Source of the DNA: Pseudomonadota bacterium | GTDB taxonomy: Bacteria > Pseudomonadota > Gammaproteobacteria > UBA5335 | Assembly (NCBI GenBank): GCA_021767745.1 | Contig: JAASSS010000002.1 | Span: 1 to 48,947, forward strand | Reading direction: 5' to 3' | DNA: 48,947 nt | Part shown: piece by piece, positions 24,923-28,428 of the stretch | Layout of the letters: each line of letters starts with the position of its first letter | Position numbering within the stretch: position 1 is the stretch's first letter | The notes under the pieces: generated by a model | Told to the model about the DNA's origin: nothing | Seen by the model: the letters and a program-made list of their open reading frames with translations, nothing else | Database searches by the model: none | Translations under genes and position numbers: made by a program

Positions 24923-26041
24923 TCAGGCCAGCTCGGTGCGGGCGGCGAGTTCGCGGCGGCGCTCGTAGGCCTCGCGCGCGATCGCCACGTCTTCCAGGAA
25001 GTAGGGCAGCTCTTCCAGCCGCAGCGCCTGGGCGCCATCCACCAGCGCCTTGGAGGGCACCGGATGGAAGTCCACCAGCACCATGTTGGCGCCGCTGACG
25101 ACCCCCTGAGCGGTGGCGTGCAGGGCGTCCATGATGCCGTCCGGCGACTTCTGCCGGCTGCCGACCGAATGCGAGGGATCGATGCACACCGGCATGCGGG
25201 TCAGCCGCTTCACTGCCGGGATGTGCGTGAAGTCCACCAGGTTGCGGTGCGGGTCGCCCATGTTGGTCTTCACGCCGCGCAGGCAGAACACCACCCGGGC
25301 ATTGCCTTCGCTGGCGAGATATTCCGCCGCATTGAGCGATTCATCCAGGGTGATGCCGAAGCCGCGCTTGATGAGCACGGGAAACTCGTGGGCTCGGCCG
25401 ACGGCCTTGAGCAGCTCGAAGTTCTGCGTGTTGCGCGTGCCGATCTGCAGCATCACGCCGGTCGGCTGCCCGGTCGCCTCGAGCGCCTCGCGGATTTCCT
25501 CCACGTGCACCTCGCGCGTGACCTCCATCGCGATCACCTTGATGCCGTACTTGCCGGCCAACTCGAACACCCAGGGCAGGCAGGCCTTGCCGTGCCCCTG
25601 GAAGGAGTAGGGATTGGTGCGCGGCTTGTAGGCGCCCATGCGGGTGCATTGCTGGCCCGCGGCCGCCAGCGCCTTGAGCGTCAGCTCCACGTGCTCGGGC
25701 GTATCGACCGCACACAGTCCGGCGAAGACGTTGAGGTTGTCCTGGCTGAAGTGGATGCCGTTGTAGTCGAAGGCGCTCGCGCGTTGCTCGTCGCGATGCC
25801 GGCCCAGCACGCGGTAGGGCTGCGAGACCCGCACTACCCGCGCCACGCCGGGCAGCGCCGCCATGTCGGTCTCGCTGAGCCCGGCGGTCTCGCCGATCAG
25901 GTAGATCTCGGTCAGCACTTGCTGCGCGCCGGGTTCGCGGTGGATGCGGTAGGTGATGCCGGCGAGCGAATCGAGGTGTTCGATCAGGCGAACATAGCGC
26001 GCATCTTCGGTGCGCACATCCGGCTGCAGGATCAGGATCAT
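24923..26041 (-). CDS. DAHP synthase-family protein (type I-beta) with altered active site
   Basis: An N-terminal ferredoxin-like domain (1-90) precedes a TIM barrel, the layout of Thermotoga-type 3-deoxy-7-phosphoheptulonate synthase (372 residues). MGAYKPRTNPYSFQGHG, IQIGTRNTQNF, LIKRGF and DPSHS are well conserved. Three usual landmarks differ: GPCS is GLCA (metal Cys110 kept), the ERG motif is LRG (253-256, CLRG), and the metal Glu in VEVHP is Asp324 (VDFHP); His291 and Asp335 are kept. It may still open the shikimate pathway, or use a related phosphoketose reaction; sequence alone cannot decide. No other aromatic-pathway gene is near. mfd follows 5 bp downstream. Confidence 0.82.
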   Translation of the reverse strand: MILILQPDVRTEDARYVRLIEHLDSLAGITYRIHREPGAQQVLTEIYLIGETAGLSETDMAALPGVARVVRVSQPYRVLGRHRDEQRASAFDYNGIHFSQDNLNVFAGLCAVDTPEHVELTLKALAAAGQQCTRMGAYKPRTNPYSFQGHGKACLPWVFELAGKYGIKVIAMEVTREVHVEEIREALEATGQPTGVMLQIGTRNTQNFELLKAVGRAHEFPVLIKRGFGITLDESLNAAEYLASEGNARVVFCLRGVKTNMGDPHRNLVDFTHIPAVKRLTRMPVCIDPSHSVGSRQKSPDGIMDALHATAQGVVSGANMVLVDFHPVPSKALVDGAQALRLEELPYFLEDVAIAREAYERRRELAARTELA

Positions 26042-26131: not shown

Positions 26132-27052
26132 TCACTCGTCCGGCGCGCCCACCTGCGAGCCCTGGCGCGGGCGGTCCATCCAGCCGCGGGCGGCAGCCCA
26201 GTAGGAGATGACCTTCTGCACCAGCTTGGCGCCGGCCATGTCGGCAATGCGCATCGGGTCCGGGATGAGCTCCATCACGTCCACCCCGGCCAGCTGCACG
26301 CGACGGTTGCCCAGCACCATCTCCAGGATGTCCAGCCCCTGATGCCAGGACAGGCCGCCCGGCTGCGGTGTGCCGGTGCTGGGGAAGACGGCCGGGTCGA
26401 AGCCGTCGACATCGATCGACAGGTACACCGGCCCGGAGAGGTCGGTGAGCTCGGCGATCAGCCGGTGCCAGCCGTCGGCGCGGCAGAGCTGGCGATCGCG
26501 GAAGACGGAGATGCGATCGGAGCTGCGCCAAAGCGCCGCCTCCTGCGCATGCGCCGAGCGCACGCCGATCTGGATCAGCCGGTGCCCTGCCTGCAGCCAG
26601 TGCCAGGCCGGGCAGGCATGGCTGTAGGCGCTGCCCTGGTAGCTCGCCCGCAGATCGGCGTGGGCGTCGATGTGCACGATCGTGCCCGGCGTCGGCATGC
26701 GGCCGGCGACCAGGCCGATGGAGGCCGAGTGCTCGCCGCCAAGCCCGATCACCAGCCGCTCCGGCCCGCATTCGGCGGCAGTGGTGGCGACGCGACGGTG
26801 GTAGTCCTCGGCGGTCTCCGCCGCCGCCTGACGCAGGGGCGGGGCGACGCACAGGCGCAGATGCTCGAACGGCGTCCAGCCGCGGTCTTCCTCGTAGAAC
26901 TCCAGTTGCTCGCTCGCCGTCAGCAGCGCCTGCGGACCGTTCGCCGTGCCGCCGCCGTAGGACACGGTCTGCTCATGTGGCAGCGGCAGCAGGACGACGT
27001 CGGCCGTCTCGATCGGGCTGTTGGGCAGGCTCAGGAAGCGGGGCTGGTCCAT
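26132..27052 (-). CDS. Agmatinase/arginase-family ureohydrolase
   Basis: This manganese ureohydrolase (306 residues) has all three metal motifs: GLGGEHSASI, IDAHADLRASY and SIDVDGFDPAVFPSTGTPQPGG. The last is characteristic of agmatinase (SpeB)-type enzymes, which hydrolyse agmatine to putrescine and urea; guanidinobutyrase or related activities cannot be excluded. No arginine decarboxylase gene is next to it. It lies 90 bp upstream of the DAHP synthase gene on the same strand, with a probable promoter in between, and 71 bp downstream of bioA. Confidence 0.88.
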   Translation of the reverse strand: MDQPRFLSLPNSPIETADVVLLPLPHEQTVSYGGGTANGPQALLTASEQLEFYEEDRGWTPFEHLRLCVAPPLRQAAAETAEDYHRRVATTAAECGPERLVIGLGGEHSASIGLVAGRMPTPGTIVHIDAHADLRASYQGSAYSHACPAWHWLQAGHRLIQIGVRSAHAQEAALWRSSDRISVFRDRQLCRADGWHRLIAELTDLSGPVYLSIDVDGFDPAVFPSTGTPQPGGLSWHQGLDILEMVLGNRRVQLAGVDVMELIPDPMRIADMAGAKLVQKVISYWAAARGWMDRPRQGSQVGAPDE

Positions 27053-27123
27053 CGATCACCGGACATATGCATGACAGTCCATCATCGCACGAGCCTGCCC
27101 GGCGTCGACACCGGCCCGGGGCG

Positions 27124-28428
27124 TCAGCCGCCCGTGCCGCTGGCGATAGCGCACATCGCCTCGCAGACCCGCTCGGTCTGGACCGGCGTCAGCGGGTAGG
27201 GCGGCATGGTGTAGATCAGGCGCCCGAACGGCCGCAGCCAGACGCCGGCGGCGGTGGCGATCGCCGTGGCCCGCGCCATGTCGACCGGCGCCTGCATCTC
27301 GATCACGCCGATCGCCCCGAACACGCGGACCTCGCGCACGCTGGGCAGTGCCGCCGCCGGCGCCAGACCGGCCCGCAGCCCCGTCTCGAGCCGGCGCACT
27401 CGCGCCTGCCAGTCGCCGGCGAGCAGCAGGTCGATCGACGCACTGGCGATGGTGCAGGCGAGCGGGTTCGCCATGAAGGTGGGGCCGTGCATCAGGACGC
27501 CGGCCTCGCCGCCGTTCAGCCGCGCGCTGACCGCGCGCGTGGTGAGCGTGGCCGCCAGCGTGAGATACCCTCCGGTGAGCGCCTTGCCGAGGCAGAGGAT
27601 GTCCGGCGTGATGCCCGCCTGCTCGCAGGCGAACAGGGTGCCGGTACGGCCGAAGCCGGTGGCGATCTCATCGCAGATCAACAGCAGCCCGTGCGCATCG
27701 CACAGCCGCCGCAGGCCGGCGAGAAACGCCGGGTGATAGAAGCGCATGCCGCCGGCGCCCTGCACCAGCGGTTCGATGATCACGCCGGCTAGCTCGTCCG
27801 CCTCCTGCTCGATCAGGGCCGCGACCGGCTCGAGCGCCGCCGGCTCGAACGGTGCGTCCGGCGGGCACTGCGGCGCTGGCGCGAAGCGCTGCTGCGGCAG
27901 CATGTCGGCGTACAGCCGGTGCATGCCATTGGCCGGATCGGAGACCGACATCGCCCAGCAGGTGTCGCCGTGATACCCGTGCCGGAAGGCCAGCAGCCGC
28001 CGGCGCTGTGGCTGGCCCGCGGCCTGCCAGTATTGCATCGCCGCCTTGATCGCCACTTCCACCGCCACCGAGCCGGAGTCGGCGAGGAAGATGCTCTCCA
28101 GCCCGGCCGGCACGATGCGCAGCAGGCGCTCGGCCAGCCCGGCGGCCGCCGGATGGGTCAGGCCGCCGAACATCACGTGGCTCATGCGTGCCAGCTGCGC
28201 CTGCGCGGCGTCGTTGAGCGCCGGCTGGTTGTAGCCGTGAATGGCGCTCCACCACGACGCCATGGCATCGATCAGCCGCCGCCCGTCGGCCAGGATCAGC
28301 TCGCAACCCTCGGCGCCGACCACCGGCAGCGGCGCGACGGCCGCCGGCAGCGAGGTGTACGGGTGCCACAGGTGGGCGTGATCGATCGCCTGCCAGGGGC
28401 TGGCGAGGTGGGCGGGCTCGGCGGTCAT
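27124..28428 (-). CDS. bioA: Adenosylmethionine-8-amino-7-oxononanoate aminotransferase
   Basis: BioA is the PLP aminotransferase that makes 7,8-diaminopelargonate from KAPA, using SAM as amino donor, in biotin synthesis. The diagnostic N-terminus HLWHPYTS, the segment ASWWSAIHGYNQP, and the lysine region LCLGKALTGGYLTLA are present, and the 434-residue length is standard. AAGVWLRPFGRLIYTMPPY near the end is typical of BioA. An AAGGAG ribosome site lies 9 bases before the ATG. No other bio genes are in view. It is divergent from the Lol operon. Confidence 0.95.
   Translation of the reverse strand: MTAEPAHLASPWQAIDHAHLWHPYTSLPAAVAPLPVVGAEGCELILADGRRLIDAMASWWSAIHGYNQPALNDAAQAQLARMSHVMFGGLTHPAAAGLAERLLRIVPAGLESIFLADSGSVAVEVAIKAAMQYWQAAGQPQRRRLLAFRHGYHGDTCWAMSVSDPANGMHRLYADMLPQQRFAPAPQCPPDAPFEPAALEPVAALIEQEADELAGVIIEPLVQGAGGMRFYHPAFLAGLRRLCDAHGLLLICDEIATGFGRTGTLFACEQAGITPDILCLGKALTGGYLTLAATLTTRAVSARLNGGEAGVLMHGPTFMANPLACTIASASIDLLLAGDWQARVRRLETGLRAGLAPAAALPSVREVRVFGAIGVIEMQAPVDMARATAIATAAGVWLRPFGRLIYTMPPYPLTPVQTERVCEAMCAIASGTGG

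Follow-up and report, generated by a model that had tools for sequence, protein, structure and literature searches.

Introduction

As described in the excerpt of PMC6362186, type I-beta DAHP synthases bind their metal through Cys, His, Glu, and Asp, contact PEP through Arg, Lys, Arg, Lys, and Arg, and contact erythrose 4-phosphate (E4P) through Arg, Thr, and Asp. Type I-alpha enzymes (AroFGH) carry a KPRT loop and a Leu where the type I-beta CERG motif has Glu, and their metal-ligand Glu is kept (LESHL/IESHL). KDO8P synthase (KdsA) has the same barrel, and its PEP chemistry is that of the DAHP synthase family. For secondary metabolism, an extra DAHP synthase lineage beside the primary ones is represented by the type IIB enzymes PhzC and PA1901 of P. 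aeruginosa, according to the excerpt of PMC6435475.

We compared with these systems a DAHP-synthase-like gene, labeled v together with its subfamily, from the window, that is, the whole stretch of 48,947 nucleotides analyzed. The v protein shares with the T. maritima type I-beta enzyme (1RZM) the domain order, the fold, the PEP and E4P contacts, and the Cys, His, and Asp metal ligands. However, it differs at Glu298 (Asp in v), Glu236 (Leu), Pro101 (Leu), Gly127 (Met), and Arg240 (Lys) and has small insertions near residues 172 and 191-195. The canonical type I-beta enzymes of proteobacteria (e.g., in genomes G027, G042, and G069) belong to the same family, have the same catalytic set, and are 34-41% identical to v over most of the length, although they form a separate clade and replace other DAHP synthases across genomes, which v does not. 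Type I-alpha, including the window genome's own copy (G000:C170), resembles v in the KPRT loop and the Leu but differs in the metal-ligand Glu, whereas KdsA has KANRS in place of KPRT and lies in a distant clade. Type IIB offers a precedent for an extra lineage, as far as the PMC6435475 excerpt goes; it differs from v in sequence class, and we noticed no secondary-metabolite cluster around v. Among the matches listed from the open-licence PMC literature, none described the v subfamily or an aguA-aguB-v operon.

Gene Layout and Active-Site Residues

The features of v are listed below by window coordinates.

24923..26041, minus strand: DAHP-synthase-like gene v, 372 aa; Pfam PF00793, 152.6 bits against a cut-off of 25.5
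24923-24925, minus strand: stop codon of v; the start codon is ATG (ORF reading)
25820..26041, minus strand: N-terminal ferredoxin-like (regulatory-type) domain, codons 1-74; Pfam PF18152 on residues 1-74, 26.1 bits, slightly below the 27-bit cut-off
25709..25720, minus strand: GLCA replacing GPCS, codons 108-111; Cys110 is a predicted metal ligand
25616..25627, minus strand: KPRT loop kept, codons 139-142, a PEP/E4P contact (alignment; excerpt of PMC6362186)
25274..25285, minus strand: CLRG replacing CERG, codons 253-256 (alignment)
25169..25171, minus strand: metal-ligand His kept, codon 291 (alignment)
25070..25072, minus strand: Asp replacing metal-ligand Glu298, codon 324 (alignment)
25037..25039, minus strand: metal-ligand Asp kept, codon 335 (alignment)

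The N-terminal domain suggests allosteric control. In the alignment with the T. maritima enzyme, Pro101 corresponds to Leu109, Cys102 to Cys110, Ser103 to Ala111, Glu236 to Leu254, His272 to His291, Glu298 to Asp324, and Asp309 to Asp335, with KPRT kept at 139-142. The initial annotation had named the changes to GLCA, CLRG, and Asp324 and the retention of the KPRT loop and of the Cys, His, and last Asp ligands, and all of them were found in place. The alignment also showed that the PEP contacts (Arg134, Lys139, Arg203, Lys225, and Arg255) and the E4P contacts (Arg141, Thr142, and Asp335) are kept. Three of the four metal ligands (Cys110, His291, and Asp335) are retained, and the fourth changed from Glu to Asp324.

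For the residue counts, v sequences were taken from the loci by BLAST-based extraction. Leu109, Ala111, Leu254, and Asp324 were invariant in all 114 distinct sequences of the subfamily, as were Cys110, Arg134, Lys139, Arg141, Arg203, Lys225, Arg255, His291, and Asp335; Thr142 was present in 111 of the 114. Beta- and Gammaproteobacteria share the altered residues without exception. As a landmark of the subclass, CLRG stood only for its Leu, whereas its Cys was variable (C 35, G 60, and A 19 of 114).

The canonical comparison comprised 32 type I-beta rows (31 proteobacterial sequences plus T. maritima), leaving out L152 and L153 as odd or short type I-beta sequences. As a result, Glu236 and Glu298 were found in 32/32 rows, Pro101 in 31/32, and Ser103 in 27/32 (Ala in four). 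Type I-alpha sequences read (V/I)LRGG, the window genome's own enzyme reading VLRGG with Leu at the position of the CERG Glu, and type II sequences read GDCAE, with Ala after the Cys. Leu254 and Ala111 alone are therefore weak signs, and this part of the earlier case for changed landmarks was weakened. Asp at the ligand-Glu position was found in none of the 4 type I-alpha, 2 type II, and 32 type I-beta sequences. Since the Leu254 and Ala111 changes recur in type I-alpha, type II, and some type I-beta sequences, the Glu-to-Asp ligand change, together with Pro to Leu, is the sole standout. One canonical-side type I-beta homologue, L152 (genome G071), has GDCA at the GPCS motif and a long branch in the tree.

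Family Scores, Phylogeny, and Predicted Structure

In the NCBIfam search, v stayed below the curated type I-beta cut-off, with 209.9 bits on TIGR01361 against 267.75, and scored 249.3 on PRK08673 against 335. On the model for the BagF/FevY DAHP synthases of antibiotic pathways (NF041229), v scored 205.9 bits against 700. By these models, v lies within the DAHP synthase family, yet below each curated cut-off.

The tree comprised 38 v, 34 canonical, and 4 KDO8P synthase sequences, with L152 and L153 included among them. The v sequences formed one clade with 100/100 support, from a bootstrap that had not fully settled; its stem was 5.08 changes per column long, and the end branches reached at most 1.13. 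This stem is far longer than any branch separating the canonical type I-beta groups; the KDO8P synthase stem in the same tree measured 8.13. In genomes holding both v and a canonical type I-beta gene, the two genes fell into different tree groups. The clade, its stem, and the scores below the NCBIfam type I-beta cut-offs bear out the earlier suggestion of a distinct subclass; v is a real, old, and strongly conserved subfamily.

In sequence and profile searches, the nearest solved proteins were the DAHP synthases of T. maritima and P. furiosus (best sequence match 186 bits), and no member of the v subfamily was seen among the solved structures. An AlphaFold model of v, predicted from a 35-row alignment of the window and fetched sequences, reached a pLDDT of 91.2 and a pTM of 0.80. 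Its top structural match was T. maritima 1RZM over the full length, with a TM-score of 0.86 by target length and 32% identity in the structural alignment. The predicted model has the (beta/alpha)8 fold of a type I-beta DAHP synthase.

Distribution

Of 114 genomes, 40 carried v, counting the genome of the window, at 60-100% identity (E <=1.1e-148). In a draw of 398 genomes from the phylum, seven carried v, all from the window's class. The GTDB contig collection held v at 80 or more loci; the best 80 include Nitrosomonas, Nitrosospira, Sulfuricella, Gallionella, Competibacteraceae, and Thiohalomonas. Carriers sequenced from isolates are Nitrosomonas nitrosa Nm90, Nitrosospira sp. Nsp2, and Sulfuricella sp. 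T08. Mobile spread was considered and rejected: v was found neither on plasmids (25 records) nor on phages (12 records), all of these matches being below 60% identity, and IMG/VR gave none.

Gene Neighborhood

The genes flanking v in the window are as follows.

26132..27052, minus strand: agmatinase (speB), 90 nt upstream of v; TIGR01230, 175.3 bits against a cut-off of 174.3
27124..28428, minus strand: bioA-type transaminase, upstream of speB; TIGR00508, 549 bits
21447..24917, minus strand: presumably mfd (transcription-repair coupling factor), 5 nt downstream of v (gene call)

The mfd and v genes are probably on the same transcript. For the wider comparison, genes were called in 101 loci (the window, 80 from GTDB, and 20 more) by a codon-composition script checked by eye on the window only, and the neighbors were clustered; because some loci end near v, the counts out of 101 include loci without a visible upstream gene. 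The names serS, lolC, and mfd in these loci are our presumptive reading of the sequences.

In 41/101 loci, the gene immediately upstream of v is an aguB-like member of the nitrilase family on the same strand, and in five of them (L051, L065, L120, L121, and L130) the two genes overlap by 4 nt. This aguB-like gene is usually preceded by an agmatine-deiminase-like gene, and in Gammaproteobacteria v usually follows aguA-aguB. The aguB-like gene scored 293 bits on TIGR03381 (N-carbamoylputrescine amidase) against a cut-off of 410 and the aguA-like gene 227 bits on TIGR03380 against 382; because both are under the curated cut-offs, their activities are putative. In the set of 114 genomes, aguB (E <1e-80) occurred in 30 v carriers, within 0.45 kb of v in 23 of them, which span 17 families; two others had it within 3.0 kb and five elsewhere. 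In other lineages, v follows lpxH (9/101 loci) or lies directly after seryl-tRNA synthetase, serS (6/101).

The sister genome G001 has the order lolC, a small gene, aguA, aguB, v, and mfd, while the window has lolC, bioA, speB, v, and mfd, and aguB was not found in the window genome. The speB and bioA genes (26132-28428) thus sit in the aguA-aguB slot of G001, an apparent in-place exchange of agmatine-to-putrescine routes. The place of the aguA-aguB pair is taken in the window by agmatinase, an enzyme that yields the same product. In L128 (genome G042, which has no aguB), the nearest upstream neighbor of v is a bioA-type gene on the opposite strand.

Either aguB or an above-cut-off speB was present in 35/40 carriers of v versus 30/74 non-carriers (p 1e-6), and in 28/33 versus 30/74 with one genome per family (p 2e-5); at most one genome per family was the correction for phylogeny in all presence/absence tests. 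However, 21 genomes have aguB but no v, and mfd directly follows aguB in 3 of the 16 non-carrier aguB loci looked at. Part of the aguB-v linkage is therefore inherited gene order. The mfd gene lies directly downstream of v in 9/101 loci, and since this gene, which has no evident functional tie, also stays, the order of the block is partly inherited.

Other DAHP Synthases and the Substitution Test

The window genome (82% complete) has another DAHP synthase, of type I-alpha, at G000:C170:1194-2207, together with aroB and aroC; no type II enzyme was found in it. The objection that v might be the only DAHP synthase of its genome, raised in the initial annotation, thus does not apply here. Across the 114 genomes, another DAHP synthase was present in 37/40 carriers and 68/74 non-carriers.

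Each canonical type, taken as a positive control, showed the substitution signal that exchangeable enzymes would give. Types I-alpha and II were both missing from 12/18 carriers of canonical type I-beta versus 9/96 of the rest (p 6e-7). Likewise, 75/86 type I-alpha carriers lacked canonical type I-beta and type II versus 9/28, and 5/14 type II carriers lacked the other two versus 9/100. For v, no signal was found among the genomes without canonical type I-beta (3/31 versus 6/65, p 1.0).

Three genomes, G019, G104, and G113 (97-100% complete), carry v, aroB, and aroC without type I-alpha, type II, or canonical type I-beta, which counts against a re-specialized v. Because they have no other known enzyme, v may be able to serve as DAHP synthase. 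As proof of that activity, the argument was dropped, because the same lack occurs in 6/74 non-carriers, of which four have aroB. These six (G062, G067, G077, G096, G100, and G106) may have either incomplete assemblies or a novel first step. A one-chromosome MAG, G119 (CP070641.1, locus L063), has v, a KdsA-like match, and aroC, with no aroB match and no other PF00793 DAHP synthase.

A neighbor search covered 111 sequences (the window and 110 loci, two of them without v), with a poor aroC query containing two stops, a KdsA query that was a fragment, and canonical type I-beta matches below 45% identity not shown. Another DAHP synthase lay near v in G431 only and aroB in none. In that locus (L186, G431:C1:128000-147000), v is preceded by an lpxH-like gene, and 98 nt beyond it, on its own strand, lies what we take to be a type I-alpha DAHP synthase (GPCSIHN). 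In L185 (G294:C1:1110000-1129000), v lies two genes after a presumed transaldolase, an E4P-forming enzyme, and a small gene, presumably TerB-like, also precedes v. The neighbors in G431 and G294 count against a re-specialized v.

A link to the Calvin cycle as E4P supply was set aside; it is not needed for the enzyme and may be an ecological correlation, and the window genome has no RuBisCO. RuBisCO occurred in 24/40 carriers versus 26/74 non-carriers (p 0.017), in 22/32 versus 20/41 among genomes of at least 2.3 Mb (p 0.10), and in 24/33 versus 26/74 with one genome per family (p 0.0004).

Discussion

We consider it probable that v is an active, re-specialized type I-beta paralogue, a PEP-dependent ulosonate-phosphate synthase and not a housekeeping DAHP synthase. 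Chemically, v very probably works like a type I-beta DAHP synthase. A divalent metal would be held by Cys110, His291, Asp324, and Asp335 and would polarize the aldehyde of a short phosphorylated aldose. C3 of PEP would then attack this aldehyde, water would add at C2, and phosphate would leave, giving a 3-deoxy-2-ulosonate phosphate. We infer that the substrate is E4P or a close relative, and v may be tied to putrescine. From gene content, the product would have a dedicated use and not feed the general shikimate supply, and in Gammaproteobacteria v would probably be co-controlled with the conversion of agmatine to putrescine. Because one metal ligand and the curated score depart from the type I-beta pattern and the gene-content behavior differs, v should be kept apart from the ordinary type I-beta DAHP synthases.

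It is possible, although we doubt it, that v is one more isozyme using PEP and E4P for the shikimate pathway and, as with AroF, AroG, and AroH of E. coli, separately feedback-regulated, the changes being neutral to the chemistry. The full set of PEP and E4P contacts listed in the PMC6362186 excerpt, the parallels to Leu254 and Ala111 in type I-alpha and type II, the three genomes in which v is the sole known DAHP synthase beside aroB and aroC, and the neighbors in G431 and G294 all fit such an isozyme. Yet v lacks the substitution signal that every canonical type tested shows, its ligand Asp replaces a Glu kept in 32/32 type I-beta and in the type I-alpha and type II sequences compared, and its stem far exceeds any branch between canonical type I-beta groups. 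Furthermore, among the 111 sequences, for which the aroC query was poor, shikimate neighbors amounted to the one DAHP synthase in G431. Less likely still is a place for v in a new pathway that uses putrescine or runs alongside it, in which PEP is condensed with a different aldehyde. The presence of aguB beside v in 17 families, the window's speB, which occupies the aguA-aguB slot and has the same net function, and the co-occurrence of 35/40 versus 30/74 point this way, whereas the kept E4P contacts in KPRT and at Asp335, the positions of v after lpxH or serS in other lineages, and the occurrence of aguB without v speak against it.

That v is a catalytically dead regulatory paralogue appears very unlikely. 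One metal ligand is changed and v coexists with a normal enzyme; however, Cys110, His291, and Asp335 as well as Arg134, Lys139, Arg141, Arg203, Lys225, and Arg255 are invariant in the 114 sequences, and their loss would be expected in a dead protein. Since v retains every known PEP and E4P contact, it is likely not dead, in agreement with what had been proposed from the sequence at the outset, when another metal preference or another substrate was also put forward as a possibility. A KDO8P synthase acting on arabinose 5-phosphate is highly improbable: v belongs to the same superfamily and matches the NCBIfam KDO8P models weakly (55.4 against a cut-off of 242 bits), but it has KPRT and not the KANRS motif of the fetched KdsA sequences, it falls in a separate clade, and G019, G104, and G113 each have a KdsA of their own.

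Beyond the probable reading of v as a re-specialized paralogue, a bolder and more tentative one is that a widespread, unrecognized family passes for DAHP synthase; it might condense PEP in another reaction, using a metal site with Asp in place of Glu, and head a novel pathway co-expressed with putrescine formation in Gammaproteobacteria. The v subfamily is a natural test of the roles of the fourth metal ligand and of the CERG Glu in the superfamily, and it gives a defined gene for assays, with carriers among sequenced isolates. If the reading of v as a re-specialized paralogue is right, family profiles would give the name DAHP synthase, in hundreds of genomes, to an enzyme that does not act as one, counting v as a DAHP synthase inflates models of the shikimate pathway, and a conserved PEP-consuming reaction has escaped notice.
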